Positions 7,768 to 33,765 of a DNA stretch of 64,000 nucleotides are shown here, in pieces. Below the pieces are notes generated by a model. That model had not been told where the DNA came from and did not search any database. It worked only from the letters and a program-made list of their open reading frames with translations. Source of the stretch: Labyrinthula sp. Ha (lineage: Eukaryota > Sar > Bigyra > Labyrinthulida > Labyrinthulaceae); NCBI GenBank assembly GCA_015227615.1, contig JAALGZ010000008.1, positions 1,488,001 through 1,552,000 of the forward strand, read 5' to 3'. Numbering within the stretch: position 1 is the stretch's first letter; every line of letters begins with the position of its first letter. The position numbers were made by a program, and so were the translations under genes.

Positions 7768-9600
7768 TCATATATGTTCCAGAGGCACGTTCAGGTTCTT
7801 GGCTGGGATAAGGTTTTGTGGGAAGAGGTGTGCTTCGAGTTTCCTTGAGGATTCCGCCAGTTCTATATCCGTTTCTGCAGTTGTGCACGTTTCCAGCCAG
7901 CTCTTTTGTTTTTCTTTTAATATTTTTAGAATGTTTATATCTCCAGCTTTGAGGATGTTGGCCTTTTTCGTGTGTTTAAGTGGTTGTGTTGGATTAGGTT
8001 GGAGGAGGGTGCGTTTTATATCTCTGGATAGTTTGTTTAAGGCTTTGGATATATCTTTGTTTTCCAGGTTCCAGAACTCGCTGCCATACTGGATTTTTGT
8101 GACCACTAGCGCTTTCACTATGTTTTTTTTTTCCTTTTGACAGTCAGCATATTATTCCTCAGTATCGGTTGCAATTTCCGAAGAGTTTCCTGTGCAGCGC
8201 GTATTCTAGCGGATGGGTTAACGTGGGTTTCAGCTGTTGCTGTTATACCCACTCCAAGGTATCTAAAGGTTTTTACTCCTTTGATGGTTCCGAGGTTGGT
8301 TTCCGGGTTTTCTTCTATTGGGATGTTGCTGCAGAGAAAGCTTTGTTTAGCTGCAGCAACTGCTGTAGTGCCTTTTCTACTTCGAACTAACGTGGTTCCC
8401 GGTCCAAAACACTGTGCTTTATGTCCTACAAGGGCATCTTTTGACGAGAAGTTTCTGGAACAAGAGGTGCAGGTATGTTTATTGGCCAGTTGTTGAATTG
8501 CAGTGTCTGAAAGCTTATCTTTGAGCTTCCTTCTTCTGATTATTCCCATGAGTTGAGTTTTCTGTGTATTTATCTTTAGACCAGACAATTGTGAGAGCTC
8601 TTCTGTATATTGAACAAAGTGTTTCAAGATGTTTCTATCTTTATTCATGATACAAAGGTCGTCAGCAAATCCAAGAATGTTTTGAAAGGAGAATTCTGCT
8701 TCTGGAAAGTTCAAGTTTATTTTCTTTATTATCCTTCGAAGCAGGGAGTCCAGAGCAAGTACAAATAACATGGGACTTAGTGAATCACCTTGTAGCACGC
8801 CCTTGTTTATTTCTACTCTATCACTTATATGTTTACCGATTTTTACTTGAACTGCAGCATATTCATATAGGTAAAGAATTATATTGACAAAGTCAGTAGA
8901 AACTTTTCCCTCTTTCAAAATAATCTCAAGTAAAGAAGGTTGACAAGAGTCGAAAAGTTCTTTAAAGTCTATAAAGAGGCAAAGTATCTTTGTGTTCTCT
9001 AATTGAATGAGTTTGCTGTGGTTCAAGAGAATTTGATTTTTTTGTCTGGTTCCCGTGTTTTCTCGAAATATGGACTGATAACTACCTACTATTCTTTCCA
9101 GGGTATTCTTTAGTCTATTGTTTATTATTTTAGTGATTATTTAGTAAGAAGTATTGAGCAACGATATTGGCCTATAGTTAGAAGGAAGTTGGTGGCTTCC
9201 TTTTTTGTATAGGAATATGATATTTCCAGGTGAAAGAGAGAAAAGTTCTTCCGTGAGTTGTTGTAGGTACTCTATTGTTATTTTATTATTTTTTGGAACT
9301 TCGTTTGTTATTCCATCAGGTCCAGGTGCTTTATAATTTTTTATTGTTCTCGCTGTTTCTTGAAGTTCGTCCAGAGTTGGGGAGGTGTATTGACATCTTC
9401 AGTTTTTGCTTCAGGTATATCCAGTTAGGTGTCCGTGATGCTTTCTTCTCTGCTCCTTTGAGTGAGTTCAAGATATTCTTGGAATACTTTTACTCATTTT
9501 TTTATCGTTTAGGTACTTTCCATCTTCCATGGTAACGGTGCGTTGAGGTTTCCGCTTTTTCCCTAGTATCCTTTCGGCCTGTTTGAAAGCTTCATGGATA
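7768..9600 (-). pseudogene. LINE reverse transcriptase with internal zinc finger
   Basis: In minus-strand order, 9600 down to 9027 encodes KAPGPDG (RT motif 0) and NYRPISLL (motif 2a region), broken by stops. The longest open part, 8118-9026, has FIDFKELFDS (motif A), KGVLQGDSLSPMLF (motif B), LGFADDLCIM (catalytic motif C) and KINTQKTQLMG (motif D). It then has an inserted CTSC-x8-LVGHKAQC zinc finger, followed by FRYLG (motif E). The tail at 7768-8118 carries IQYGSEFWNLENKD, the usual end of non-LTR RTs. The catalytic Asp pair is intact, but at least three stops or frame changes disable the protein. It copies RNA at a nicked target in living relatives. Confidence 0.82.
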
Positions 9601-10312
9601 TCATTCTCCCATAGCTGTATCTATTCTTCTTACTTGGAGGTCCAACCAGGTTTTGTAGTCAGTCAACGTACTTTTTCTTATCATTTTCTTTAGTATTTTA
9701 GATTCGTTTTCAATTAGAGATTTCCACAGTCTTCTTCTTATTTCAAATAGAGTTTCTGTTCTATCTGAAGATGTTCTGTAGAGCCGCTCGTGTGCCACCA
9801 GTGGGATACAGTTTTCAATGGCTTGTTTTACTGTTGACTTGAATGTTTGGAAGTTTAGTCTTGATTGTTTTCCAGAGTTGTTGGATGGTGGGAGTTTGGC
9901 TATTTCTTCTTCGAAGCCTTGTCGTATTTCTTCGTTTAGTTTCCAGCGGTTTGCGTCAATTTTGAAGAACTCTTTGTAGTTTCGATGCATCTTTGGGTTT
10001 TGGTTGGAGTATTTCCTGAACTTTTGTGAGACTAGTGCTTCAACTGGTTGATGATCAAACTCTGTTCTATTTTGGATCTTCTCTCCTAGTTTTCTTTTTA
10101 TCCGAATTTTTCGGAATAGTGGGGTGCTGCCTTTACACGCTATGATGAAATCTATTTCTGAGCGTTTCTGATTATTCTTGTGCTTTGAGTAGTATTTTAC
10201 GTGACTATTTGTATTCTTTGCACCCGTAGCGAAGTATGAGTTGACGATGGCCAGGTTGTACTTGTTCAAAAAGTCCTGAAGTATTTTGCCGTTCCTGTTC
10301 GTTCTTGTCGTG
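9601..10312 (-). pseudogene. LINE endonuclease, C-terminal half
   Basis: The frame TRTNRNGKILQDFLNKYNLA, then RSEIDFIIA, matches the second half of the apurinic endonuclease of non-LTR elements (N-x-N-G-x-x-L-x-x-F, then R-S-x-I-D-Y-I). Basic linker sequence towards the RT follows. The N-terminal half of the same domain lies beyond the gypsy element, ending at 19961. Confidence 0.8.
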
Positions 10313-10590
10313 TAGATCGCCACCGGTATCTTGACTTCTTCGGTGGGATAGGTTCACGCGTGTTCTAGGTCTTTCCTTTAACTTAGCTTATAGTATCTCT
10401 TGGTCTCTTTGATATCTTGAACTGATAGGCTTGTATTTTACTTTCTCTTTTGTGATTAAATCTTATTCCGTTGGATTGTTACACTGACCCTTTTGGTCAT
10501 TCTATGCACCCAATCATATCACTCTAACTACCCAATCATATTATACTATTTATATTAATAATCAATAATGCAGAACTTCATAACGATACA
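10313..10590 (-). repeat. 3' LTR of the gypsy element
   Basis: A 278-bp LTR reading TGTATCG...CGATCTA on the minus strand. It differs from the copy at 19683-19960 by a single transition. The last codons of the methyltransferase ORF lie in its first 13 bases. Confidence 0.93.
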
Positions 10591-11417
10591 TCCCCCTTCT
10601 CCCATAAATGCGAGACTCCATTCTGTCTAAGCACCGCCTGTGTCCCAAGACTTCTCATATTTTCGTTTAGGTCAGTCCTGGTCTCGAGGTGCAGCCATCC
10701 TTTTTGTAGTCCGCTTATACTAGAAAATATCTCTATTAGAACTGCATTGTCCCCCATTATCCGCTTAACCTCCTTTTTTACCGCCAGTGGTTTTATTCCG
10801 TATTTTGCCCGATCAGCAAATATCACTTCTTGTTTCCTCAATACTTCCAGCGCTATCGATCCTTCAACGTTGCGTCGCTTAAAGAAATATAATACTTCAT
10901 GCGATCGCTGAAATATTTTTCCTAAAGCTCCTCTTATTTTTCCACGTGGCGTCATTTTCACCCATGTCCAACTATGAACGGGCTCATAATCCGCCTTGTC
11001 CATATATCGAAACACCTGGCACAGTTTTCCTTGCGGAATCCATACCGCCGCATACTGCGGTCTTACTTCTTTTATTCCGAAGTCCATCCAGTCTATATTT
11101 CTGCCTCCGCCTGGATTCGCTTCCGCGTTTTTCCAAGGCGGGTCGGCTAAAATCAGTTTCACTTCCGGCAATCCTGGCTCCCCCTGACTCCAGTCCATCT
11201 TATATGGATCAAGTGTATACCACACTTTTTCAGGCGGCGCTATGCACCACTTCAGTATTACTTCGCTTTCTTCGAAAAAGACCTCAAATACTCTACCCAC
11301 GCACTGTATCGCGGTAAGTTGTATTTTTCCATCATACGATATCAAATACCGCCACTTAGCATCCTGCTCTATCTGAAAGGGAATGTTCGTTAAAACCCGC
11401 GGCGTCCTGGTCGGCTC
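10578..11417 (-). CDS. MT-A70-family N6-adenine methyltransferase encoded by the gypsy element
   Basis: The open frame spans 10578-11417; the conserved domain fills the last 250 codons. LILADPPWKN holds the DPPW catalytic motif of the MT-A70 class, which methylates the N6 of adenine in RNA or DNA using S-adenosylmethionine. Further class features are a strand with AAVWIP, then HSWTWVKMTPRGKIRGALGK, RSHEVLYFFKR, a conserved Lys-Pro (IKPLAVKKEV) and EIFSS...QKGWLHLE. These correspond to the R-(G)-x-H-E-x-(L/C)-L-x-(F/G) and (E/L)-L-F-x-R...GW blocks. It looks closer to prokaryote- or phage-type MT-A70 proteins than to METTL3. The frame passes through the polypurine tract and ends in the LTR. 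How translation starts is not evident. Composition matches the rest of the element, so it is a resident part of it. Confidence 0.86.
   Translation of the reverse strand, partial: EPTRTPRVLTNIPFQIEQDAKWRYLISYDGKIQLTAIQCVGRVFEVFFEESEVILKWCIAPPEKVWYTLDPYKMDWSQGEPGLPEVKLILADPPWKNAEANPGGGRNIDWMDFGIKEVRPQYAAVWIPQGKLCQVFRYMDKADYEPVHSWTWVKMTPRGKIRGALGKIFQRSHEVLYFFKRRNVEGSIALEVLRKQEVIFADRAKYGIKPLAVKKEVKRIMGDNAVLIEIFSSISGLQKGWLHLETRTDLNENMRSLGTQAVLRQNGVSHLWEKGDVSL
10591..10604 (-). other. Polypurine tract of the gypsy element
   Basis: On the minus strand GGGAGAAGGGGGA directly precedes the TG of the 3' LTR. The same bases encode W-E-K-G-D in the methyltransferase ORF, so priming signal and coding sequence are shared. 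Confidence 0.88.
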
Positions 11418-11792
11418 TTAATGGCGCTCATATCTTATTCGAAAGCCATTTTCCTCCCATTCCGCTTCTTTGTTCTGCTCAAATGCGACAACCATTGTAC
11501 CTATCATTTCTTCATAGGTCGCAAGCTTCCTGCACAACTTCGCCGCCTTCCTCACATAATCAGCGGCCCTCTTCCTGTGCTTCCGCAAACCTGCCGCATA
11601 TTCTGGCGTAAACTCCGCCGCTACTTCCTCATTAGAAAGCGCTAGCGCCTGCTCACAGTCAGAAAACCGCCTTACGCAGCGGAAATCCGCGCGCCTAATT
11701 CTTTCATTTGACTTTCGCGCTTTTTCAATATCCCAATGTTCTCCCCCTATCTCTTCAAGGTTCAGCCGCCCTAATTGCTGCTGGATATATCC
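11418..11792 (-). CDS. Small charged helical ORF between integrase and methyltransferase
   Basis: An open stretch of about 124 codons follows the chromodomain ORF. It is rich in Arg, Lys, Glu and Ala, with runs such as LRKHRKRAADYVRKAAKLCR, and probably forms long helices. No Cys/His finger, membrane segment or catalytic motif is visible. Base composition matches the gypsy element. It may be a distal extension of pol or a separate accessory protein acting with the methyltransferase. I do not recognise it. Confidence 0.5.
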   Translation of the reverse strand, partial: GYIQQQLGRLNLEEIGGEHWDIEKARKSNERIRRADFRCVRRFSDCEQALALSNEEVAAEFTPEYAAGLRKHRKRAADYVRKAAKLCRKLATYEEMIGTMVVAFEQNKEAEWEENGFRIRYERH

Positions 11793-14627
11793 TCAAATCA
11801 TAGATGAACTTTTATGCGGGAGATATAAATGGTACTTCTCAAAGCGGCCGATACCAAATTTAAGCACCAGCTTTCTAACTTCCTGCTTTTCCGCTTTTGT
11901 CCATCCTTTTACCGCCGCCACAATATGTTGCTTGGTCGGTAATTTCGTTTGTGCTGCTGTTAAATAATCATGCCATTTCCGAAATCCTGGCATTCTCCTT
12001 ATTATTCGATCAATACCATGTTCCGTTGTGATGAGCGCTTGCTTTGCTCTTTTTCGCAATTTATCTTGACTCGGTCTACGTGTTTTTGCCGATAAGTGTT
12101 CCGTTAGAACATTTCTCACATCTCCGTACATCGTTTGAATAGGTTCCCAAGTGTTGTCTTCGTCACGAAAACCCCTCCATTTAACTTCTACTACATATTC
12201 GGTTAAACGAGGGTCGTATCTAACATCTCCGAAACCTGCTACTTCTAAATGTTTAAAGTTTCCGACATAGATTTTTCTTAGCGCCTCCGCCGGTACAAAC
12301 CCGCTCGGCTCATAAAAATATAGCCGGCTTCCATGCACTTCCGTCGTTTTTCCGTCTAATGTTTTGACTTTGTAAACATTTTTCGAAACTACTTCTACAA
12401 TTTGTGCCGGGCCAGACCACTCCAGCGCTAACTTATCGCGCTCTCTTGGAGTGCCTTTCGACGATACCAGGCACCAGTCCCCTTCATTATATTGAAGTAG
12501 CGCTGGATCAACCGCCGTCCTCTTTCTCCTATTGTTCAGTACTTTCTGAAATTCTACATACTTAGCGATTTTGCCTTCATAATCATCCAAGTGCTTTCTG
12601 AAAGCGGAACTCAATTTATATAATATATCATCGTCAATACCGACCAACATCCTAGCGCCGCCTCGGATGCTCTCCACTATTGGCGGAAGACCCGCAGGTT
12701 CAATATACTGGCGCTCCGGATTTACATATAAAAATAATTCATATGCTGTCGGTGCATTTTTCCGATCAGGTATTTTGCGCGGCGGCACCGGCAACTCATT
12801 CATCGCACCTTGAATTTTATTCAATATCTTCGGCCACTCATCCTCATTCAGTCGGTATTCGTTAACCAGACTTTTTAAGAAATTCAACACCTTTTTATTC
12901 ACTACTTCAACTTCTCCGTTTGTCCAGCTCGCATAAGATACTGCGAAGCTTTGAGAAAAACGAAGTTCCTTCCTAAGCGCTGCCATCAATGAATTCGCAA
13001 AATGACTTCCGCGGTCCGTTACTAACGTAAAGTCTTTCTCCAATTTATAATTTGCCGCAAATCTATCAAGCGCTTCTATAACCGCCTGTGTATCCGGTGT
13101 TTTCGCATGCGTTAGCTGCGTAAATCTGCTGAAGGCATCTGTTAATACTAAAATATGCCCTATTCTATTTACGTATAGGAAGTCTGCAACTAAAGTTTCG
13201 CGCGGCCGCCTGGCTCTCGTGACCAGGCTGTAGGTTGTTTTAATCGCCTTCGGGAGTCTGCGGCAGTGTATACAGTTATCCCTGAATAAGCGGATTAATT
13301 CAACCATCTTCTTCCATGGGGTATCTCCTCTTAGCGTACGCTCCATGGCGGCGGGAATTCTCCATTCAAATTTAGCCGCCTCCGCCAAGTCCGCCTCAAG
13401 GGAACCGTGCTTATTTGCTAAATGTATGTGGACTAATTGCCGCTCCAAAAGTGAGGTCGGTAAAATAATCTTCCCCGACAACCTTTTTATTCTCGAGGTT
13501 CTAGTGATCAACTCTTTTTTCTGCTCATTAATAACTTCCGCTTCCGTCAGCGGCGCCCAATCGCCTTCAAAATATGGGTTGAATACTGATACCCTATATT
13601 TATCAAGTGACTTAAGCGACGCATATATCTTTTTATCCATCTGACGTTTTGGTCTCAGGTGGTTTACTCTCACCGTTGTGCTTCTTATCTTTGCAGTAAT
13701 GCCATCCTCATCCTCCGACGATGAATAAGTATCCGTCTCAATGTAGCGCTCTTTTTCTGTGTCGCTAATATCCGACGGAACTTCAGTCGGCCACGTCGCG
13801 AAATCCTCCGTCAGTTTTCTCCATTCTTCTTCAGAATATTCATTTTTAATTTGGCGCTCTATTTCTTTCATAAGATTCGGCGCACCTTCCTCTCGCAGCG
13901 GTTTCCGCATAATCCGCCTAGTAATTTGCCGACAACCTGTTACCGTCGGTTGCACAAAATACTTGGGCGTGATACTCATATTCAACCCTTCTATCCATTT
14001 TTGTCTTTTTGGTTGCAATAAGTCGGGTGTCCAGTCTTCAAAATCTCTCTTGATTCTAAAGAATAGGTCTTCATCACCAAGTAACGAATCATCTCTCTCG
14101 GTATATACGGATAAAGCATCAAGCACTGCTTCCTGAAGCCACTCTTTTATTTTTGCGTCAGTCTCCTGTCGGCATTTCTCCGACACTCTTCTCAGGCGCT
14201 TCATCGCGCGCGGCTGGACGGGTATTTCTCTTTCCGCTTCCCGTGTCTGCACCTTTACCGTTCTTACGGCCGTCCTTCCGCCATCGTCTGTCGGCGCCGC
14301 CCATCTCGTAAGCATGTCCGCAAAAATATTACTATCTCCGTCGACGTGATGGATGTCTACCAACACATGCTGCAAGATCACCATCCAGCGCTGCAGGCGG
14401 TTAAGATGTCCATGATTAATCTTTGATCCACCTTGCAATATTGCCTTTAAATTCAAGTGATCGTTGTACACCTGTACCGCCGTCGGATGAAAAGGCAGCA
14501 AGTATGAAAGTTTATTAAATGTTCGGATTATGGGGTATAATTCTTTGTGAGATATACCCCATACAAGTTGACTTACGTCAAATTTTCCGCTAAAAAACAT
14601 CATCGGATAAACTGTCTTTTTCAACAA
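11793..14627 (-). CDS. Gypsy element RNase H, integrase and chromodomain
   Basis: This open region of about 944 codons starts in RNase H (SHKELYPIIRTFNKL, then VYNDHLNLKAIL, then DGDSNIFADMLTRW). A variable spacer leads to integrase. Integrase shows an HHCC-type finger (HLANKHG...NCIHCRR) and the D,D-35-E core (VADFLYV; LVTDRGSHFA; ASWTNGEVEVVNKK). Near the C-terminus VEVKWRGFRDEDNTWEPI is a chromodomain, which in chromoviruses guides insertion to marked chromatin. The three catalytic acidic residues are present. Confidence 0.92.
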   Translation of the reverse strand: MLKKTVYPMMFFSGKFDVSQLVWGISHKELYPIIRTFNKLSYLLPFHPTAVQVYNDHLNLKAILQGGSKINHGHLNRLQRWMVILQHVLVDIHHVDGDSNIFADMLTRWAAPTDDGGRTAVRTVKVQTREAEREIPVQPRAMKRLRRVSEKCRQETDAKIKEWLQEAVLDALSVYTERDDSLLGDEDLFFRIKRDFEDWTPDLLQPKRQKWIEGLNMSITPKYFVQPTVTGCRQITRRIMRKPLREEGAPNLMKEIERQIKNEYSEEEWRKLTEDFATWPTEVPSDISDTEKERYIETDTYSSSEDEDGITAKIRSTTVRVNHLRPKRQMDKKIYASLKSLDKYRVSVFNPYFEGDWAPLTEAEVINEQKKELITRTSRIKRLSGKIILPTSLLERQLVHIHLANKHGSLEADLAEAAKFEWRIPAAMERTLRGDTPWKKMVELIRLFRDNCIHCRRLPKAIKTTYSLVTRARRPRETLVADFLYVNRIGHILVLTDAFSRFTQLTHAKTPDTQAVIEALDRFAANYKLEKDFTLVTDRGSHFANSLMAALRKELRFSQSFAVSYASWTNGEVEVVNKKVLNFLKSLVNEYRLNEDEWPKILNKIQGAMNELPVPPRKIPDRKNAPTAYELFLYVNPERQYIEPAGLPPIVESIRGGARMLVGIDDDILYKLSSAFRKHLDDYEGKIAKYVEFQKVLNNRRKRTAVDPALLQYNEGDWCLVSSKGTPRERDKLALEWSGPAQIVEVVSKNVYKVKTLDGKTTEVHGSRLYFYEPSGFVPAEALRKIYVGNFKHLEVAGFGDVRYDPRLTEYVVEVKWRGFRDEDNTWEPIQTMYGDVRNVLTEHLSAKTRRPSQDKLRKRAKQALITTEHGIDRIIRRMPGFRKWHDYLTAAQTKLPTKQHIVAAVKGWTKAEKQEVRKLVLKFGIGRFEKYHLYLPHKSSSMI

Positions 14628-14645
14628 GTCTTTTACGCGCTCTTC

Positions 14646-16097
14646 CTATTGTGCTTGAAATAAGATCGCGCTATGATATTTATCCGATGCGTCGGTTACT
14701 AGAATTAAATCCATGCTCCGATCATAGTGTTGTAGGCGCGCCTTTGCGGCGTCCGCCAATCTCTGCTTGAAGCGCTTAAATGCCGCCTCCAATTCCTCGT
14801 TCCACAAAATCCGCTTTTTCTCTCTTAGAAGCTTCTTCTTCTTTCCCTTCATTTCCGGGTAAAACAACATAATTTTATCTCTAAGTTCCACCATTTCAGG
14901 AACTGCCGATGTCAACCACTGCGCCAAATGTAAGAGTTTTGCCAACTCATATACATACTCAGGCTTTGGGACAAGTAAAATCTTCTCATAATACTTCTTC
15001 GAATAATTCCACCCACCATTCTGCAGAATCCTTCCGCAATACTCAATACCCGTCGTAAATAATATTGATTTCGTCGGGCTAATTCTCACTTTCCATTTCC
15101 GCAGATTGCGCAAAACATCTTCTAAAATGCTGATGTAGCGCTTAAAATCCTTCGCGTGTATCAACGTATCGTCAATCCATTGAACGATTCCGTTGCCTTC
15201 TTTATTATAATTAGCCGCCGCAATATGATCCACCATGCGCTGGTGAAAAAATACCGGCGTCGAGTGATATCCCATCGGCGCAAATTGCAATTGAAATACG
15301 CCATAAGTTGTCATAAGGTTGAAATACTTCTTAGCGCGGTCCGTTATTGCTAATTGATCAAATCCGCTCACAACATCTAAACATCCGTAAAACCGCGCCG
15401 GCGCCGTGTTGACTAATTGTGTTTCAAGTATGGGGAGTATATTTACATCCCTATGCAATACCTTATTCACTGCAACTAAATCTAACACCATGCGCCAAGT
15501 ATTATTTTTCTTAGGGACAGCAAAGACAACCGACCCATAAATTGCTTGTCGGATTTTCTTTGCCATACCCTTCTCGACCATTCCGTCCAATTTTTCCTTC
15601 ACGAACTCCGCCTTTCCAGGCCCAAGCGGCCGTGGTGCCGGCATCTTGAATTCCGCCCCTTTTATTGGCACAACATCCATAGGCGGCAAAAGGCTAATTC
15701 CTATTTGCGACGCGCTTGTTGCGAACACATCCTCATACTTGAGGCATAAACCCCTAAGCTGGTTGCGCTGGTCTTCGTTAGCGTCGCCAGCGGCTTCTAC
15801 CATTTTCGTTATTGCTTCGCGTATTTCAGCTCTTTCCGCTTCCGGTTGATAGAGCGCATTCCCTTCGGGAAGCATTAATTGCTCTAAGTTGTCCTCGTCG
15901 ATTACATCCTTATTTTGCTTTAGGTGTATTGTTTCTCCAAACGGTATACCTCCCGCATTTCCGTCGCGCAGGCGTCTACTAAAATCAATTGACGCCGCGC
16001 GGATTGACGGAACGTCGGCAAGGACTTCCATTTTCCCGCCCGTTAGTTTTCTAATCATCGCCGCGAAACGAAGCCTAGGCAGTTTTAATCCTGTCAA
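14646..16097 (-). CDS. Gypsy element reverse transcriptase
   Basis: About 483 codons. RT blocks are KNNTWRMVLDLVAVNKVL, YGCLDVVSGFDQLAI (motif A), FQLQFAPMGYHSTPVFFHQ (motif B), VQWIDDTLIHA (motif C, I-D-D where many relatives have Y/V-D-D), LRKWKVRISPTKSILF (motif D) and IEYCGRIL (motif E). The C-terminal part leads into RNase H (LVTDASD). The sequence upstream connects to the protease-bearing gag ORF through a short region at 16119-16394 in another frame. Confidence 0.92.
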   Translation of the reverse strand: MTGLKLPRLRFAAMIRKLTGGKMEVLADVPSIRAASIDFSRRLRDGNAGGIPFGETIHLKQNKDVIDEDNLEQLMLPEGNALYQPEAERAEIREAITKMVEAAGDANEDQRNQLRGLCLKYEDVFATSASQIGISLLPPMDVVPIKGAEFKMPAPRPLGPGKAEFVKEKLDGMVEKGMAKKIRQAIYGSVVFAVPKKNNTWRMVLDLVAVNKVLHRDVNILPILETQLVNTAPARFYGCLDVVSGFDQLAITDRAKKYFNLMTTYGVFQLQFAPMGYHSTPVFFHQRMVDHIAAANYNKEGNGIVQWIDDTLIHAKDFKRYISILEDVLRNLRKWKVRISPTKSILFTTGIEYCGRILQNGGWNYSKKYYEKILLVPKPEYVYELAKLLHLAQWLTSAVPEMVELRDKIMLFYPEMKGKKKKLLREKKRILWNEELEAAFKRFKQRLADAAKARLQHYDRSMDLILVTDASDKYHSAILFQAQ

Positions 16098-16424
16098 GAA
16101 TTGTACATCCTTTGACCTCTAGTGGTTAAGTTTCTGCGTATTGACATTCTTTATAAAAACAAAGTATAATTTTACCGCCAAATTTCCGTCGGTGTCCTCC
16201 AAAATTTTTACCATCTCAGCTAAAGCATATTCATATTTCGCGAAGTTAGAAATTGAACCAAGTATTAAATTTAAGCTCAACCCGACTACGACGATATCAT
16301 ATACTCCAGAAAGCTGTCCAAGTTCCTCCGACATCAGCGCTCTTACAACTGCGGCGCTATCAGCAAAGCAACTTCGACAAACCTTCAGGCACACGGGACC
16401 GCTTTCCGCCCCGCTGCCGACTTC

Positions 16425-19400
16425 CTATACGTTCTGGTGCGGCATCAATCCCGCTTTTTCCAGCGCAGGAGCTCCGACCAGCAGTTCCTTCCACTTCTTG
16501 TCATCTACAAGGAATATCTTCATCTTGCGGAAGTCGCATTTCCATACTCCGCCGATGCGCAACTCGAGATCGGCATAACCTATTTTAGTTATGCGGAGGT
16601 CCGTCGTGCCGTCGGCTATAGTAATTCTTTCTTTAACATCTTCTATAACGTCCATCATCCATGCATGCTTGTGAAGTGAAGCAACACTCTCATCTGCGCC
16701 GCTATCCAGAATTGCGTCGGAAATGCGGTCTCCTGATCTGACATGGTGGATGGTTACATCTTTCTTTTCCGCCCTCCTTACCGACACATTTATTCTCCTG
16801 GTTGGGTTACGCTTCTTATACTCGTCCCCTGGCGCCGGCAATGCTAGAAATGAATCGCGCTGCTTCGACTTCCTATCCTCATTTCTTTCATAGCGCCTGT
16901 TTTCATAGCCGCCCCTGTTTCTATGCGGGAAGTACCTTCCTCGGTTTGTACTTCGTCTATATCCGCGGGGGCTGGGGGATCGAGACTTGCGGCGGTAATA
17001 TTTGTTGCCGTTTCTACCTCTTTCCTTATCAGAAGATATCGATTGTCTTCTCTTCCTTCCGCTTCGATGCGCCCTCTGTTGAGTCCTTCTTACTTCGGAC
17101 TCCCGCGGCGCCGTGACGGTCGGTTCGGGCGGCGATAGGTCCACTTCTTCCGTGGTGTCCATTCTCCGCTCGTAGACTGACTTAATAAGGTCTCTAAATT
17201 TATTAAGCGAGTCGCCGAACTTTGACTTTGGCGCATCTAGCTTCACTTTAAGGCGGGCATCTCTCATTTGCAATTCCACCGGAAGCCGCTTATTCAGCGC
17301 TTTTAATACTTCAAATTTTTGCGCATTCTCCTTAAGTTGCTTCCATTTTATGCATCCCGTGGCGCTGCTCATATAAGTATTTAAGCGCTCCAAAAACGGG
17401 CCTTCACTCGGCCATGCGACTTTTTCCGCAATAGTGCGGAGCGTATCTTCTCCTTCATACGCTTCGTGCTCCGACATATACTTCCTCAAATACTCAACGA
17501 GCCCCTCCTTTGTCACACCTGAACTGGAAAGACTCTGCTTGAGCTCTGGATCAACATGAATCCAGAGGTTTGGCTCCTTTTCTCCGCCATAAACATCTAG
17601 GTATGCGTCGCGCATATCTAACATGGCGCGGATATCCTTTACCTTTGGCGCTTTCAAAGTTCTGAATTTACCGCCGTAGGATCTCCACACCCGATCTCGG
17701 CGCGCATCCTCCGCTCTTTGCCTTTGGATTTCAGCTACTTCATCCGTATCCTTGGGCCTCTTTAGCGCTTGAGCGGTTACTTCCGTCAACTTCGCTAGTA
17801 GCGATTCCATTCCGCTCATTTTTGCCGACAGCGTGAAGACACTCTCTTGTGTTGCTTCCGCCAGCGACCTCGTTTCCGCAAAGTCGGAAAGGGTTCTTCC
17901 ATGAGCCGGGGTTGACTTAGGCGTTGGCGGCGTTTGAGGGGTAGGTCCAAAGGCGCTTTCTTGTTCGATAGCCGACCTTTGAAGTTCTCTTACTTTCTCT
18001 ACCTCTGCGCGGTAAAGACTTTTCATCTCCCTCAACTCTTTAGCCATCCTCTTAATTTCCGCCTTATTCTTCTTCCGTTCCTCATTTACCGCTTTCCTCA
18101 TGATCGTGGAGTTACGATCTCTGAGTACCGATTCCGCTGCCAGCGATTGCGCCTTAATCCTTTCATTTGCCGTGGTTAACGTATCGATGCGTTTTTGCAA
18201 CCTATTTTCCACATCCGTCCTAGTATGCTCCGAAGGTCTCACTTTGCGTATTGGCGTTCTCATCACTATCTCCGCGGCGGGTTCCGCCCTCATTACCCAC
18301 CTAAAGGGCGTGATCCGTCTTGGGCGGTCTGGGTCATCATTAGCCGACAAATTAGGCTTCGGCATATTTCCTCTTACGACTGCCATACCCCTATCCGCCA
18401 TGAACTGCACAGCTGTGGTAATCAAACCTTCCGTTGAGCGGAAAAACCACGTCGGAGTGTTATACTTGAGGACTTGCGCTGGGGACTTTTTCCGCTGCCC
18501 CACTAATTGTCCAAAAGACACTTCTTGACTTTCTCTGAAGTTTGGCACCGCCGCCAGCATATGCGCTACTCTGGCGCTTATAGGAACTCCGTGAAGTTCC
18601 TTTTCCGACAAGGCGGTCATCAACAATAGTGGATATCTCGAAGATTTGTGTATGTTCTTTTCTTCGAGCAACTCCACCGCCGTCTTTCCTCTCATTCGGC
18701 TCTGCATTTCACGAAGGTCTTCTTCGCAAACTACATACTTCTTTGGGGTGAACCAACGCGGTTCTTTCAAATAAAACTCACATTGTTTTCGGCTAACCCT
18801 CTTTTGTCTTGGCGCACTCGGCGCCGCCTTCTTTTTTGACTTCTTTGCCGACGGCGGGGAGGTTAAATTTACCGCTTCCGCCCCAGCCTTCTTATTCCGA
18901 CCTTTTGCAATTACCCGCTCAAGGGTTGTCGGCTCATCAATATTAAGCGCCCCATCACTTGAGGCGGCTTCATCTTCCAGCGCTGCGGTCGGCGATGTCG
19001 GCTCGACCTCCTTAGTCGCTGTCATAGGTTGCGTCAAGTCTAGAATATCCGCTTCCTTTTCGGCGGCGGCGAATATTCTTTCCGCCCGGTCTTCTGTGGC
19101 GGCGACTTCATTTTCCGCTTCATCTTCCGCTTCAGCAACTAAATTTCCCGCCTCATCTTCTTCCCCAGCGGCTAAATTTTCCGCCTCACTTTCCGATTCG
19201 GATAAAAGCATCGTCTCGGCTACCGCGTCTGGCTTGGGGTCATCCTGACCCGGCGCTCCTGTCGCGACACGGTTAGCCTTGCTTTTCGTCTTCTCAGCCG
19301 CCGCTACCTGGGCGGCTTCTTGGCTGTTATTTTCCGCCTCAGTTTCCGCTCGGGCGGCTAAATTCTCCGCCCCGCTATTCTCCGCCGAGTCTTCCGCCTC

Positions 19401-19613
19401 GTCGGCTAACGGTAAATGAAGCGACTTGCGCAGTGCGGCGCGCTTCTCGTCGCTTAATTCGTCAGTCCGACCTTCTTCTTGCTCACCACCTTCATCCTCC
19501 GATGAGTCCGCCCCGAAGAGCTCTTCTTGCTCATCGTCTTCCTCTTCCTGCTCTCTTCTTATCCTCTCTGCTTCCCTCTCCTCCAGCTCTTTTTTCTTTT
19601 CTCTCTGCAACAC
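16425..19613 (-). CDS. Gypsy element Gag with C-terminal retropepsin
   Basis: About 1,060 codons, long for a Gag. The first 230 residues are Glu/Ala-rich and repetitive (AENLAAGEEDEAGNLVAEAE). Lys/Ser-rich basic sequence follows, and a coiled-coil stretch near residues 480-560 (NERIKAQSLAAESVLRDR). Then comes a capsid-like helical region (KFGDSLNKFRDLIKSVYERR) and an Arg/Gly/Tyr-rich nucleic-acid-binding tail (RYFPHRNRGGYENRRYERNE) instead of a CCHC knuckle. ISDAILDSGADESVAS near residue 965 is the retropepsin active site. The start codon is uncertain. The acidic N-terminal extension is unusual for the family. Confidence 0.85.
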   Translation of the reverse strand: MLQREKKKELEEREAERIRREQEEEDDEQEELFGADSSEDEGGEQEEGRTDELSDEKRAALRKSLHLPLADEAEDSAENSGAENLAARAETEAENNSQEAAQVAAAEKTKSKANRVATGAPGQDDPKPDAVAETMLLSESESEAENLAAGEEDEAGNLVAEAEDEAENEVAATEDRAERIFAAAEKEADILDLTQPMTATKEVEPTSPTAALEDEAASSDGALNIDEPTTLERVIAKGRNKKAGAEAVNLTSPPSAKKSKKKAAPSAPRQKRVSRKQCEFYLKEPRWFTPKKYVVCEEDLREMQSRMRGKTAVELLEEKNIHKSSRYPLLLMTALSEKELHGVPISARVAHMLAAVPNFRESQEVSFGQLVGQRKKSPAQVLKYNTPTWFFRSTEGLITTAVQFMADRGMAVVRGNMPKPNLSANDDPDRPRRITPFRWVMRAEPAAEIVMRTPIRKVRPSEHTRTDVENRLQKRIDTLTTANERIKAQSLAAESVLRDRNSTIMRKAVNEERKKNKAEIKRMAKELREMKSLYRAEVEKVRELQRSAIEQESAFGPTPQTPPTPKSTPAHGRTLSDFAETRSLAEATQESVFTLSAKMSGMESLLAKLTEVTAQALKRPKDTDEVAEIQRQRAEDARRDRVWRSYGGKFRTLKAPKVKDIRAMLDMRDAYLDVYGGEKEPNLWIHVDPELKQSLSSSGVTKEGLVEYLRKYMSEHEAYEGEDTLRTIAEKVAWPSEGPFLERLNTYMSSATGCIKWKQLKENAQKFEVLKALNKRLPVELQMRDARLKVKLDAPKSKFGDSLNKFRDLIKSVYERRMDTTEEVDLSPPEPTVTAPRESEVRRTQQRAHRSGRKRRQSISSDKERGRNGNKYYRRKSRSPSPRGYRRSTNRGRYFPHRNRGGYENRRYERNEDRKSKQRDSFLALPAPGDEYKKRNPTRRINVSVRRAEKKDVTIHHVRSGDRISDAILDSGADESVASLHKHAWMMDVIEDVKERITIADGTTDLRITKIGYADLELRIGGVWKCDFRKMKIFLVDDKKWKELLVGAPALEKAGLMPHQNV

Positions 19614-19682
19614 CCTCTATTTTCTCGATAACGGCATTCTGATTTCGTTATTGACCTCTAACCTCTTGCCTTGTAATTACAA

Positions 19683-19960
19683 TAGATCGCCACCGGTATC
19701 TTGACTTCTTCGGTGGGATAGGTTCACGCGTGTTCTAGGTCTTTCCTTTAACTTAGCTTATAGTATCTCTTGGTCTCTTTGATATCTTGAACTGATAGGC
19801 TTGTATTTTACTTTCTCTTTTGTGATTAAATCTTATTCCGTTGGATTGTTACACTGACCCTTTTGGTCATTCTGTGCACCCAATCATATCACTCTAACTA
19901 CCCAATCATATTATACTATTTATATTAATAATCAATAATGCAGAACTTCATAACGATACA
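19683..19960 (-). repeat. 5' LTR of the gypsy element
   Basis: A 278-bp LTR with one difference from 10313-10590. Just inside it, at 19671-19682, lies the perfect 12-bp palindrome ttgtaattacaa. No sequence starting TGG and resembling a tRNA 3'-end complement is seen there. Confidence 0.93.
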
Positions 19961-23430: not shown

Positions 23431-23730
23431 AGTCAGACACTAAGCAGTCGAGTGTACGACTCTCTCCATACTGACTGTTTACACTTTACATAGTTATAAT
23501 ACAATATTACATTACTGCACAATTGGTGCAACTTTACATAATACATTTTTACTAATACATAAGCACCGGAAACAACAGATAGTAAAACCTTAATATCTCA
23601 ACAACTACTGGGAGTTAGAAAACGTTACTTATATCATTTTAAAGCTCTTTTTAAGCTCTTTGAATTTGTTTCACTTAATATATGTATCCTCATACACATA
23701 TAGACGATACGGACAATTACTTGTCTAACT
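23431..23730 (+). repeat. 5' LTR of the copia element
   Basis: 300 bp. The coding frame is already open inside its last 50 bp, with an ATG at 23682 in the LTR and a second ATG at 23740 just inside the element. Confidence 0.93.
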
Positions 23731-26700
23731 TGGTTGCGATGGAAGTAAACGAAAATCAGAACGATCCCGTGGAAGAACGAACAGCACGGAGTGAAAACTC
23801 CAACTTAACCCAAGGGGAAACTCATTTACAAGACTTTCCTGCTTCAACTAGAACACTTACAAAGCTAGAAATTACAAATGAAGCAATTAACGAAGAATTC
23901 TACAAAAAAGGACGAAAAAGATTGGAAAACCTTTTACGATCAAAAACTGATCAAAACCAATTCGAACTACTGAAACAAGGTGTTGAGATGTATCTGCTTG
24001 CCTTAAAATTACAAATTAATGGAACATCTCTACGCAAATTTTTTAAATCTCATGATCGCAGCATCATTGATGAGCTGTTAGAATCTTACAATCCGCTTAC
24101 TCAAAAATCTAACTACATTCTAGAGGAAGAAATTGACGATGAACTTTCAGATGACATCATTTCTCTTTGGAAAAAAGACGTTGTTTTCTTACGAACAATC
24201 CGAACCCCACATCGTTTTTGCAAAATCCTGCGACGCATCGGGGCTGTTACATTCTTACCTACACAAACCAGAAAAAGAATTAACTTTGGAAACTTGATTT
24301 ACAGCTGTTGGGAGGAATCAGAACCCATTACAGAGTTCGTTAAACGCTTTGATTCTTTGGTACAACAGGCTAATCAGATCAAGATGATGCAAAATGACTC
24401 TGATTTACTTACACTTTTTCAAACTAAGATTCTCTTCAGAAGAAACAACAATCAGAAAATTTTTACAGTTGTCAACAATTTGGATTCAAAAGATCTACCA
24501 TTAAAGGATTACATGAGTGAAGTGACACAAGCCGTACTTCAGCATGACAATTCAGGTTTGATCCCTTTTGATGCTCCAAGTACATCAGTTGTTGCATTTA
24601 CAAAGAAAATTGTTTCTTCTAATTCAAAAGTTACATTGTGTTTCAATTGCGGTGAAGATTTTCCACACAAAGGAAAACAATGTGCTGCTAAAGGTGCTAC
24701 CTGTTCTTACTGTGGTAAACCTAATCATTTTGCAAAGGTGTGTTCAACCAACCCAGAACGTACATTACAACTTCCCAAGATGAAGAAAAAGCCTACAAAG
24801 AAAACAGTAGCAGTAACTTCTACAAAAGAAAATTTTAATCCTTTCAGTTTCGCTACTTCTCTTTGTACCACAGGTTCAAACTCTTTAGCTGGGCTAGATT
24901 CATGCAGCGATGTTTTCGTTTTCAGAAGCGCTGATTTTTTTACACACATGGATCAGAAGCCTGGTAAACTTACACTTACAGAAAATTCTGGTAGCTACGA
25001 AAGCACTGGAACAGCCAGATTTGCATTCAAAGAATTTCCTTCTAAGTTTTTTACAGTACAGGCAATTTACATGCCAAGTGCAAATTTCAACATTTTGTGT
25101 ACCTACGATCTAGAGCAACAGAATGTTAAAGTCAACCATCGCTCTAGAAATGTACAACTAGAAACAGGAAACAAATTAAAAATAATTTTACTTGGAAAGA
25201 AAAGCTTCATTGAAATCATTCCACTAGGGAAATCAGTTTTACAAACCTCTGATCCAAATCTAATGCATCGTAGGTTGATGCACCTCTCAGAAGACAAACT
25301 TAAACACGCTGGTTTCATTAAGGGTTCTCAAAAGCTGAACAGCTGCCAAGTCTGTCTTCAGACGAAAGCTAAACACAACCCAGTGAAGAATTTAATTCAC
25401 AAGATGAAACTCTCTCCTGATTCCAAAGGTCAAGCTTTTTCAATGGACTTACTCATTCCGCCAAAACACTCGATGAAACCAGTCAATGGTGTTGTGGCTG
25501 CATTGATTTTAGTTGACCTGAAAACAAAATTAATTAGAGTTGCTCCTTTAAGAACACTTCAATCGAAAGATTTACTTGCAGCTCTTTACTACCTTCTTTC
25601 TACACTCAAAACTTTACCAAAAACGATTGTTACAGACCGCCAATCTGGTTTTACGGCAGAACACTTTGTCAACTCAATTTCCGCAAAAGGCATTCATTTA
25701 CGTTTTGTCCCTAGAGATCGACATGACACTTTCAATGGAGTTGCTGAACGAACGATTGGCATCTTAAAGGTCATGGCTTCAGCCGCCCTACTACAGTCTA
25801 AACTTGATGACTCCTTTTGGATCTACGCGGTCAAATTTGCAAGTTACATCAAGAACAGAGTGCATCACAAAACACTTGGTGAGTCACCTTACAAACTAGA
25901 AACTGGGCAAGAACCAAACCTTTCTTCACTTAGAACCTTTGGTTGCTGTTGTTTTACGTTAAAATCTTCTGGAACGAAGACAAACAAATTTCAAGAAAGA
26001 ACAGACACTGGTCTCTTTCTTGGACTACAGGAACATTCAAGCTTCAACACAGCAATCATCTACAAACTTAGTACTGGAAAAATCATTTATCCTCAACTAA
26101 CCGATGTTTGGTTCCAAGAATCAAGAATACATGATCAAATCGATCAAAATCCACCAACTTTCTCATTTGGTGACATCAAAATTGTTGACAAAACTGAAAA
26201 TGACCCAATTTCTGAGGACGATTTTGAATCTGATGATGACGATGATTTCAGTCCAGATTTTGGTATACACTATGTACGTTATGGCCAGAAGGCAAATCAA
26301 CAAGAAAATCATGATTTTGAGCATGATGATAATTTCGATGAAAATCCCCCTTCAGCAGATGTTCAACTCGATCAGGATCAAGATGCACATGATCCAACCC
26401 CATCTGCCGAAGTAACAAACCCTGAAACACCTCAAACGAGCGAAAACAGCAATGCTCGTCTACCAGTCACAACGCGATCTGGGAGAAATGCAACGAAATT
26501 CGACCTAAATCGGATGTCAGCATTCACGTTGAACACAACTGAAGAAACAACACACATCATAAAGCCTAAAACAAAAGGTCAGAAAGAAAAGCTACGGAAG
26601 AAGATCATTCAGTCTAGAATTGATCAGAAACCTTCCATTTACCGTGACACAGGAGGTCACCCAGACGAAGCATCTTACAAGAAAGCGGTCGAAAAAGAAC

Positions 26701-28176
26701 TCAAAGCTTTGGAAGAACGAAAGGTTCTCAAAGTGATTAATCGCTCTGAACTTCCTGAAAATGCTTACGTTGGAAAATGCACGATGCTTGTGAAACAAAA
26801 ACGCAATGGTAGTTTCAAAGCAAGATGTGTTTACAATGGAAGATCTCAGAAATTCAAAATTACACCTTACCGCAGTTCTCCTACCTTAGATTACAACAGT
26901 CTTGCAGTTGCACTAGCAGTTGCGGCTCGAAGACAGTTCCATTTTAACTCTTTAGATGTTAGTACCGCATTCTTGTACGCGGATCTACCTGCTGGCACTA
27001 CACTCTACTGTGAAATCCCTGATGGACATGAACTGAAACATGACAAGACTAAAGTAATGAAGATTGAGAAAGCGCTTTACGGTCTGAAGGAAAGTCCCAA
27101 GCTTTGGTTTGACAATGTTTCTGCTAAAATTCAAAAACTTGGACTCAAACAAGCAATCTTTGACGAGTGTGTTTTCTACAAGAAAGATTTAATTACTTTA
27201 CGTTGATGATGTACTGATGCTCGGTACAAAACAAGAAATTACAAACTTCTCAAAACAGTTTGGGAAAACTTACAAAATTACACTAGGAACACTAGATCAG
27301 AAAACAGACTTCTTAGGAGTTTACATTGAAAGAAAACCCAATGGAGACTACCAAATTGACCAAACCAAACACATTGAGAAAATTTTAGAAAAATTCAAGG
27401 ATTTCAAGACTAAAGACAAATTTACACCATTACCTTCTACTTTCGCTGAGGCTGTTAAGAACAATTCCAATGCTAAAAGCATTAAATTTCCGTACAGAGA
27501 ATTGCTTGGATCTTTAATTTACTTACGACTTACAAGATTTGATTTACTCTACGCGTTACATGCGCTTAGTCAACTTTCTGAACACGTGACAAGTTTTGCA
27601 GTAAAGTCAATTCTCAACACATTAGGTTACATTAGTAAAACGAAACATCAAAAACGAATTTTTTACTCAGATCAATCAAATGGTGAAATTACACTTCTTG
27701 CCTTTTGTGATGCTGAATGGGCCTCTAACTCACTTAACAGAAAAAGTGTTAGTGGTAACTTCATTTACTTTGGTCAATCGCTCATTACTGGCAGAAGTTC
27801 AAGACAAAGGACAGTTGCTACCTCTGCTGCCGGAGCTGAGCTGATTGAAATTTACAAGACAGCAAAACATTTGCAAGGAATCTACGGATTGTGCATGGAT
27901 TTAGATTGCAAAGTCAAACTACCTTCAGTGATTCTTACAGATTCACTTAGTTCAACTAAAACCTTAGAAAAGACAGTTTCTCCAGAGCAAAAACACATGA
28001 GTGTTGCAATTCATTTCTTAAAAGGACTCATTCGTTCAGGAAAACTAAAGGTGATTTTCATCAAACGCGAATTCAACATTGCTGATCTTCAAACGAAACA
28101 GAATCCAAGAGCTGAGTTTGAAAAACTTTGGAACATGACTCATTCAAGGATGAAGTGGCAGCATTTGAAGATCTAA
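23682..28176 (+). pseudogene. Copia gag-pol region
   Basis: Gag ends with paired zinc knuckles (CFNCGEDFPHKGKQC and CSYCGKPNHFAKVC). A protease region follows (LAGLDSCSDVFVF, with D-S-C where many have D-S-G). Integrase has HRRLMHLSEDKL, NSCQVCLQTK, then FSMDLL, VTDRQSGF and NGVAERTIG as the D,D-35-E core. The acidic linker is followed by RT (KARCVYNGRSQ, SLDVSTAFLYADL, KALYGLKESPKLW) and RNase H (AFCDAEWASN, then LTDSLSS). Order and motifs are those of Ty1/copia. About one break is present, so it looks nearly whole but not active as read. Confidence 0.93.
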
Positions 28177-31002: not shown

Positions 31003-31556
31003 GAGAAAGAAAATCCTGGGATAAAGTCTTAAATATCAGTGGAAGCAGAGTTGGAGCTATTTAAAATTTATTCATTGACAAAAGATACGAGTTTTCATAA
31101 AGAATCCAGATTAAACTCTAGACTTACATAATATAGATATAAAAAGCTAATATTTATTGTGTCTAATGGCATTTAGAGATGAGGCAGATTCTTCTGATTC
31201 TTCAATGGTATCACTTTCTTCTTCGTACTCTTTTGTGTTTTCACCTAATAAATCAGCACAACAATCAACTGTCACACCACCTAATACACCTGAAACACAA
31301 TCAGCTGTGAATGCCATATCTGATGAGCTATGCCTTCTAATTCCCTGCTGTGCAAAGTCAGCAACTGTTATAAATTTAAATTTGAATCTATCAGCTTCAT
31401 CCACTTGCTCACCTCCATCATTAGTGTTTATCGAAACAATACAACTACATGCAGTGCAAATTTTTTCTTTTTCAAAATCACATAAAGCAAATTCATCTTC
31501 ACAAACTAAAGGTTCATATTCTGGAACTATTTCAATACCTTGTTCTTCTCTTTCAT
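31003..31556. repeat. Segmental duplication, unit 1 (3' part of copy C and its flank)
   Basis: 31003-31308 matches 33173-33478 and 31340-31556 matches 33549-33765. There are about 3 differences in some 523 bp, and a 39-bp in-frame length difference between the two blocks. The duplicated sequence covers about 140 bp of 3' flank and the C-terminal half of the gene. Identity stops abruptly at 31556 and 33765. Confidence 0.9.
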
Positions 31557-31785
31557 CAACTTTTTTTATGCCTTTATCAAGCAGAATAAAATAAGAAGAT
31601 ATTTCAACTATCACCAAAAATATATTAAATAAAACAAGATAAAACTTTTGTTTTTTTTCTTTATTTTTTTGTTTTTGAACCAAATAGTTTTGTCTTATTT
31701 GAAGTTCTTGTTCTCTATCTTTAATAAACCAACGAGGAGTATATTCTTCAGAAGTTGTATTATTTATTTGTAACTGAATGTTCAT
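31147..31785 (-). CDS. Cys-rich single-pass membrane protein family, copy C (mosaic)
   Basis: 212 residues from the ATG at 31785, uninterrupted. A polar, charged N-terminus (PRWFIKDREQELQIRQNY) is followed by a basic KKQK and one membrane segment at residues 49-69. The C-terminal half has C95-x6-C102-x7-C110-x2-C113-x-C115, then VDCCADLL and an acidic Glu/Ser tail. There is no signal peptide, so it is probably anchored with the Cys-rich half across the membrane. Its N-terminal half is A-type, while everything after residue 77 is nearly identical to copy D. In place of D's stretch with the DTCLVC pair it has a shorter segment (RRHSSSDMAFT), losing two Cys. Function unknown; a lineage-specific surface or endomembrane protein is my guess. 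Confidence 0.65.
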   Translation of the reverse strand: MNIQLQINNTTSEEYTPRWFIKDREQELQIRQNYLVQKQKNKEKKQKFYLVLFNIFLVIVEISSYFILLDKGIKKVDEREEQGIEIVPEYEPLVCEDEFALCDFEKEKICTACSCIVSINTNDGGEQVDEADRFKFKFITVADFAQQGIRRHSSSDMAFTADCVSGVLGGVTVDCCADLLGENTKEYEEESDTIEESEESASSLNAIRHNKY

Positions 31786-33172: not shown

Positions 33173-33765
33173 GAGAAAGAAAATCCTGGGATAAAGTCTT
33201 AAATATCAGTGGAAGCAGAGTTGAAGCTATTTAAAATTTATTCATTGACAAAAGATACGAGTTTTCATAAAGAATCCAGATTAAACTCTAGACTTACATA
33301 ATATAGATATAAAAAGCTAATATTTATTGTGTCTAATGGCATTTAGAGATGAGGCAGATTCTTCTGATTCTTCAATGGTATCACTTTCTTCTTCGTACTC
33401 TTTTGTGTTTTCACCCAATAAATCAGCACAACAATCAACTGTCACACCACCTAATACACCTGAAACACAATCAGCTGTAGATCTATCATCAACACACACA
33501 AGACAAGTATCTGATGATAATATAGTTTCTCTTGCTACTGTGGCGTTAATTCCCTGCGGTGCAAAGTCAGCAACTGTTATAAATTTAAATTTGAATCTAT
33601 CAGCTTCATCCACTTGCTCACCTCCATCATTAGTGTTTATCGAAACAATACAACTACATGCAGTGCAAATTTTTTCTTTTTCAAAATCACATAAAGCAAA
33701 TTCATCTTCACAAACTAAAGGTTCATATTCTGGAACTATTTCAATACCTTGTTCTTCTCTTTCAT
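33173..33765. repeat. Segmental duplication, unit 2 (3' part of copy D and its flank)
   Basis: Partner of 31003-31556, in the same orientation and offset by 2,170 bp, rising to 2,209 bp after the 39-bp length difference. Confidence 0.9.

Follow-up and report, generated by a model that had tools for sequence, protein, structure and literature searches.

Results

An LTR retrotransposon with an MT-A70 domain at its 3′ end

The window, by which we mean the whole stretch of 64,000 nucleotides of Labyrinthula sp. Ha DNA that was analysed, contains on its minus strand a whole LTR retrotransposon of the Ty3/gypsy type (Table 1). Its outer flanks read CACG on both sides, as expected of a target duplication, and its G+C content is 46%, compared to 33% for the remainder of the window. 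From 5′ to 3′ it encodes a Gag-like frame with an aspartic protease, reverse transcriptase (RT), RNase H, integrase, a chromodomain, a Myb-like segment and an MT-A70 methyltransferase domain. An earlier note on this DNA had described a young Ty3/gypsy chromodomain element with an MT-A70 enzyme inside it, and both the single mismatch between the 278-nucleotide LTRs and the order of the domains agree with that description. The domains share a single reading frame, and five in-frame stops interrupt it on the way from the beginning of Gag to the end of MT-A70. One of these may be the Gag/Pol boundary, but with five of them the copy is damaged despite its near-identical LTRs.

Table 1. Features of the 9.65 kb element in the window, with the evidence for each
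Feature	Position	Strand	Evidence
Whole LTR retrotransposon, Ty3/gypsy type, 9,648 bp	10313..19960	-	LTR pair, CACG flanks, domain order
5′ LTR, 278 nt	19683..19960	-	1 mismatch compared to 3′ LTR
Gag-like frame with aspartic protease (PR) at its end, DSGAD at 16706-16692	16428..19613	-	ORF; own PR profile 16736-16434, i-E 4e-11
Reverse transcriptase, WIDD motif at 15179-15168	14946..15725	-	Pfam RVT_1 6.6e-16; own profile 2.2e-68
RNase H, one in-frame stop within	14316..14825	-	Pfam and own profile
Integrase	12714..13520	-	Pfam rve 5.4e-10; own profile 2.1e-67
Chromodomain	12093..12266	-	Pfam Chromo 2.6e-5, 24.5 bits, 0.6 under the 25.1 cut-off; own profile 1.8e-14
P1-like Myb segment, in-frame stop at 11795-11793	11802..11912	-	Own MYB profile 4.7e-11; family profile matches P1 of MTA1c
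MT-A70 (MTA1/AMT1-like) frame, DPPW at 11144-11133	10578..11417	-	Pfam 9e-9; five MTA1 entries are the sole PDB sequences at E≤1
Polypurine tract, within the MT-A70 coding frame and abutting the 3′ LTR	10591..10603	-	Sequence
3′ LTR, 278 nt, in which the MT-A70 frame terminates	10313..10590	-	Repeat comparison

The MT-A70 frame is open from stop to stop between 11417 and 10581, ends with a TGA at 10580-10578 and encodes 279 residues. It matches the Pfam family PF05063 with 35.9 bits, where the curated cut-off is 23.9, and the DPPW motif reported in the earlier note is indeed present. The polypurine tract lies in the same frame and the stop codon is formed by nucleotides 11–13 of the 3′ LTR, so the frame belongs to the element; a neighbouring host gene is ruled out by this tie to the LTR and by the same layout in copies elsewhere. 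Thus the earlier view of the ORF as cargo rather than a host gene is right in that the element owns it, but it is not a separate cargo ORF, since intact relatives encode it as a domain within Pol. The P1-like Myb segment upstream of MT-A70, and the fusion in one frame with Pol in relatives, had been overlooked.

Other mobile elements are present in the window. On the plus strand at 1249-2710 lies a second, strongly shortened LTR element with identical 207-nucleotide repeats (1249-1455 and 2504-2710), enclosing a short ORF and just the end of an MT-A70 domain (2170-2460; identity to the L049 family 85%), with a G-rich tract as its final stretch next to the LTR; this element probably moved in trans. 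Two minus-strand ORFs, which we take to be those of a LINE, lie at 8118-9026 (an RT match with a C2H2 zinc-finger match inside) and at 9601-10323 (the second ORF, with no Pfam match), the first codons of the latter falling within the edge of the 3′ LTR; the 9,648-bp element has apparently inserted into a LINE copy or next to one. At 23682-28176 (plus strand) there is an element that is presumably of the Ty1/copia type. The copy in the window is cut by a stop; counting itself, its first ORF matches 39 sites in the genome at 95–100% identity, 22 of them in an open frame of at least 1,500 residues. Finally, two small minus-strand ORFs (31147-31785 and 33317-33883) have a long, nearly identical stretch in common, a local partial duplication.

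Copies across the genome

We searched the window's own assembly (50.84 Mb in 153 contigs) for MT-A70-like sequences. The protein from the window matches 147 sites, the Pfam MT-A70 family 150 (the best 150 of 354 candidates) and the MT-A70 domain of the distant L049 family likewise 150 (the best 150 of 439). The union is at least 303 distinct sites, a number that counts fragments, includes the host AMT1 and may include other host genes. The earlier note had allowed for a one-off insertion, should other family members lack the ORF; with copies across the genome that is ruled out. Among the best 150 of 549 candidate integrase-core (rve) sites, 93 are followed on the same strand by MT-A70 at a distance of 1,586–2,212 bp, and the remaining 57, which have no MT-A70 among the matches listed, may include Ty1/copia elements as well as sites whose MT-A70 falls outside the scored matches. 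A similar picture emerges from the 150 best-scored P1-like sites, where comparison with an earlier list of 239 MT-A70 sites places MT-A70 355–992 bp downstream at 106 and not at the other 44. More than 100 element copies carry the P1-like and MT-A70-like parts together.

To look at the architecture, 20 loci were fetched, comprising 19 elements and the host AMT1 (L031). RT, RNase H, integrase (IN), chromodomain, Myb and MT-A70 are all present in 15 of the 19 elements; L032 and L034 have no Myb match, L038 no chromodomain match, and L033, which is at a contig start, no RT match. An LTR pair brackets MT-A70 in 18 of the 19 (88.9–100% identical across 122–700 aligned nucleotides), and in the 15 of these where it was measured the MT-A70 frame ends between 13 nucleotides inside and 70 nucleotides before the LTR match. 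Five elements (L042, L046, L047, L048 and L050) have everything from the protease region through MT-A70 in one ORF of 2,061–2,180 residues, giving an intact polyprotein of about 2,100 residues in the order PR-RT-RNaseH-IN-chromodomain-Myb-MT-A70. Pfam finds RT, RNaseH, rve, Chromo and MT-A70 in L042, L047 and L048, and two of these also match a protease weakly. For L042, where the P1-MT-A70 extension behind the chromodomain is 476 residues long, the nearest solved pol relative in a PDB sequence search is the Ty3 Gag-Pol polyprotein (1.6e-25). The position of the protease varies: in L041, L043 and P0008 a protease-like domain is found after the integrase, chromodomain and P1-like domain and before MT-A70, not before RT, and in L049 none was found. 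The group as a whole has the LTR pair, target duplication, polypurine tract, PR-RT-RNaseH-IN order and chromodomain after the integrase that characterise Ty3/gypsy chromodomain elements, and in this large retrotransposon group the Pol polyprotein has MT-A70 as its C-terminal domain.

Relatives of the MT-A70 and Myb domains

A profile running from Myb to MT-A70, made from 13 rows (12 elements and the host AMT1), was searched against all PDB sequences. Tetrahymena MTA1 came first (1.5e-69), followed by METTL3 (2.3e-42), METTL14 (1.9e-21) and 7cv6 (1.1e-19), which is recorded in the PDB as Methyltransferase-like protein 2 and which we take to be METTL4-like; the N-terminal part of the profile matched the P1 subunit of MTA1c (9.2e-11). 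Because the host AMT1 sat in this profile, queries made of elements only are the cleaner evidence of kinship. L042 alone matches MTA1 with 5.7e-34 and METTL3 with 9.3e-20, and the MT-A70 domain of the window alone has five matches at E≤1, all of them MTA1. Judged by sequence, then, the domain is closest among solved structures to Tetrahymena MTA1/AMT1, not to METTL3, METTL14 or METTL4.

Comparison of folds is less discriminating. For an AlphaFold2 model of P0009 (mean pLDDT 70, from an input alignment that also held AMT1 rows) the best Foldseek match is MTA1 of MTA1c (3.0e-18), but VIA-align gives METTL3 and MTA1 equal Z. The alignment to MTA1 starts at its residue 135 and covers part of the Helical domain, which is reported to be absent from MTA9, METTL3 and METTL14 (PMC9174199), though the METTL3 chains compared are mostly MTase domain only, so that the longer MTA1 alignment is no test against METTL3. 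No P1 chain was among the matches listed for this model, one domain having filled the list. A model of the window domain (pLDDT 67, from an alignment that included AMT1 rows) has MTA1/AMT1 chains at Foldseek ranks 1–13, and METTL3 and MTA1 are again equal by VIA-align.

For the Myb segment, a query from ten element copies matches P1 in the PDB with 6.8e-18 across residues 21–160, compared to 2.3e-9 over about 50 residues for the next Myb protein; both the Myb domain and the conserved stretch behind it are thus matched, as P1 kinship requires. An MT-A70 domain of the AMT1/MTA1 kind together with a P1-like domain favours DNA over RNA as the predicted substrate. The host has an AMT1 of its own, with no LTRs at the locus, and its nearest named relatives are in Mucochytrium quahogii and Hondaea fermentalgiana. 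Of the 150 scored P1-like sites, the two that best match Tetrahymena P1 (C1:1284467 and C100:135979) are among the 44 with no MT-A70 downstream, which makes them candidates for host P1 genes.

Origin and selection

We built a tree of MT-A70 domains from 71 rows, which are the 77 prepared minus P0001, P0007, P0019, L008, L013 and L021 (duplicates or partial, P0007 being a presumed duplicate); broken domains and those covering fewer than 125 profile positions had been left out. A single branch, with support of 99/92 and found in 100% of 200 bootstrap trees, separates the 42 element domains from 29 AMT1 rows, the latter consisting of 27 proteins chosen by hand from 120 listed, the host AMT1 and Tetrahymena MTA1. 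The host AMT1 groups with the other AMT1s and not with the element domains. As the element domains form their own clade beside the AMT1 rows, AMT1 being the sole MT-A70 subfamily sampled, we consider them AMT1-like and not AMT1 orthologues. The tree is most simply read as a single ancient capture from an AMT1-like source, though this is no proof, because the branches are long enough for the program to have warned of long branches meeting and because the tree holds no METTL3, METTL14 or METTL4 rows. A recent copy of the host AMT1 is unsupported, given where that gene groups and that it has no LTRs.

The RT and MT-A70 domains can be compared in 21 elements (23 have both, P0001 and P0004 being set aside as duplicates). 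Their trees have 11 of 18 splits in common, some of which join near-copies, and no more than 2 are shared in any of 1000 label shuffles; the row from the window has no supported place in either tree. The two domains have in part descended together.

Among pairs with an MT-A70 dS of 0.02–1.5, the dN/dS of the domain from the window (L001) is 0.29, 0.12, 0.17, 0.16 and 0.12 against L002, L003, L004, L005 and L007, respectively, and lies at 0.11–0.14 for L029/L030, L032/L039, L032/L040 and L035/L045. It is higher in two very close pairs (0.35 and 0.46) and in distant, saturated pairs (0.44–0.79). The integrase and RT values are below those of MT-A70 where measured, so MT-A70 is the less constrained. 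With values mostly of 0.1–0.3 in close pairs, the pattern of substitution shows purifying selection on the MT-A70 domain.

Two scans of some 5.8 billion proteins for the elements found 8 and 10 matches at E≤1e-3, all to EukProt gene models in one naming style, one of which is 100% identical to L042 across the searched region; these probably come from the Labyrinthula source species itself. Searches of this kind need shared short words, as do those of viral contigs, where two scans found no relatives, and of genome contigs, where the host AMT1 as query found none.

Conservation of the catalytic pocket

In Tetrahymena MTA1, changing Asp182, Asp209 or Asn360 to Ala is reported to abolish activity and strongly reduce SAM binding, and R357A, N359A and N370A to reduce activity (PMC9174199). 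We scored 11 pocket positions, namely D182, the four of DPPW, K334, R357, N359, N360, N370 and E371. L042 is identical to MTA1 at all 11, while the copy in the window keeps six (D182, DPPW and K334), with R357, N359, N360, N370 and E371 replaced. Its close relatives show the same losses, and L003 additionally has no D of DPPW. Across 43 distinct stop-free element domains, N360 is kept in 29 and R357 in 34, and DPPW, D182 and N360 occur together in 13; the D182 position is N or S in 10 of the 29 AMT1s too. DPPY, DLPF, DPAW or DLTG stands in place of DPPW in some copies, and L015, L016 and L018 have no DPPW. Because five cofactor-pocket residues are replaced, including an Asn that is essential in MTA1, the window copy and its subfamily are probably weak or non-catalytic. 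Some element families could plausibly write methyl marks, and the subfamily in the window may instead bind DNA or act as a partner subunit in the manner of MTA9 and METTL14.

Discussion

What the P1-MT-A70 module may do

On balance we lean towards the P1-like Myb and MT-A70 domains forming a writer module for DNA N6-methyladenine (6mA) that methylates the element's own DNA and marks it as active chromatin. Families with an intact pocket would bind SAM and methylate double-stranded DNA at ApT, the P1-like part would hold the DNA in the place of the host P1, and host MTA9 and P2 would perhaps complete the complex. If Pol travels with the cDNA into the nucleus, this P1-MTA1-like writer would reach the new copy and tag it as permissive, which could help it to escape silencing. 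Double-stranded DNA is the reported substrate of MTA1c, which acts weakly or not at all on RNA and single-stranded DNA, and MTA1 without its partners is nearly inactive, needing them for full activity (PMC9174199). In eukaryotes with AMT1, 6mA at ApT is reported to accompany active genes, with transposable elements not enriched (PMC12695648). The report on Phytophthora, which has no working MT-A70 gene and uses another enzyme type, places antibody-mapped 6mA on lowly expressed genes and transposable elements (PMC6211444), the opposite of an active mark, and this counts against the activating reading.

Rather unlikely, though the strongest of the alternatives, is that the P1/MTA1-like tail binds DNA or partners in the host AMT1 complex and so steers the integrase to active, 6mA-marked genes, complementing the chromodomain, with catalysis secondary or lost. 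The tail sits behind integrase and chromodomain in one polypeptide, the host has AMT1 and two P1 candidates, and the subfamily in the window is without several pocket residues yet has dN/dS of 0.12–0.29; with that subfamily under purifying selection although its catalysis is probably weak or lost, acting as a partner or tether is the better fit. However, a tether would have no need of the complete pocket of L042, or of DPPW, D182 and N360 together in 13 of 43 domains. We regard as improbable a second alternative, one of the options raised in the earlier note, in which the enzyme places m6A on element RNA and alters its export, translation or packaging. METTL3 is an MT-A70 enzyme, the second best family in the PDB and equal to MTA1 by fold, and Gag-Pol acts on RNA; against this, the sequence is nearer to MTA1, a P1-like domain accompanies MT-A70, no CCCH zinc finger of the kind at the N terminus of METTL3 is among the Pfam matches at E≤0.01 for 11 proteins (several of them partial), and the reported preference of MTA1c is for double-stranded DNA (PMC9174199). 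Least probable of all is a passenger without function today, captured long ago and carried along because it contains the polypurine tract and 3′ cis sequences, since the short element at 1249-2710 retaining just the MT-A70 tail beside its 3′ LTR, the catalytic motifs lost in some copies and the dN/dS of 0.35–0.46 in two very close pairs have to be set against 0.11–0.29 in other close pairs, the complete pocket of L042 and the partial co-descent with RT.

Returning to a module that writes 6mA on the element's own DNA, a wider proposal can be put forward as tentative. A retrotransposon clade would have taken P1 and AMT1, two of the four subunits of the eukaryotic 6mA writer, as a tail to Pol and multiplied into the hundreds, with some families staying catalytic and others becoming partners with eroded cofactor sites, a division of labour like that of METTL3 and METTL14; the clade would write permissive 6mA on itself and may reshape the 6mA landscape of its host. 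One host's 6mA landscape could then be partly driven by elements. Were the elements 6mA-marked as well as young, they would be selfish elements that selection has shaped to place an activating mark on DNA, and would offer a natural experiment on whether 6mA plays an instructive role. They also supply hundreds of natural AMT1-like sequences, some with eroded cofactor sites.

Comparison with known systems

The elements have the LTRs and the PR-RT-RNaseH-IN-chromodomain core of other chromodomain Ty3/gypsy elements, which we take to be those named chromoviruses. They differ from them in the P1-MT-A70 extension past the chromodomain and, in L041, L043 and P0008, in the protease-like domain behind the P1-like one. 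The likeness to the Tetrahymena MTA1c/AMT1 complex (MTA1, MTA9, p1 and p2), as reported in PMC9174199, is that MT-A70 is nearest to MTA1 and Myb to p1, with 11 of 11 pocket residues in L042; the difference is that here p1-like and MTA1-like parts follow the integrase in one chain.

Retrotransposons whose coding regions have acquired a DNA methyltransferase are already known from KnitGypsy-Dnmt3 of Klebsormidium nitens and the SymbioLINE and SymbioDIRS-Dnmt elements (PMC5890265). KnitGypsy, which like the Labyrinthula elements is a Gypsy element, has a reported Ka/Ks below 0.2, and the RT and DNMT trees of SymbioDIRS are congruent (PMC5890265). The Labyrinthula domain likewise lies inside the coding region, in many copies and under purifying selection, and we infer that its substrate is DNA; but the enzymes described in that source are cytosine methyltransferases (5mC), and here an MT-A70 of the AMT1 kind shares its polyprotein with a second complex subunit, the P1-like domain. 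Adenine methyltransferase domains occur in DIRS elements too, but those cited in PMC5890265 and PMC6338049 are Dam-like enzymes of bacterial type in tyrosine-recombinase elements, with no P1 or chromodomain mentioned in the passages concerned, and not MT-A70. No prior description of an LTR element with MT-A70 was found among the matches listed in open-licence literature (titles and abstract openings). Measured against what these sources describe, retroelements with DNMT or Dam-like enzymes are known already, and what appears to be new is the joining of MT-A70/AMT1-like and P1-like domains in the polyprotein of a chromodomain Ty3/gypsy element. Where earlier captures took up cytosine DNMTs or bacterial Dam-like enzymes, this one draws on the AMT1 pathway, whose mark is reported to be tied to active chromatin in the AMT1-bearing species studied (PMC12695648).
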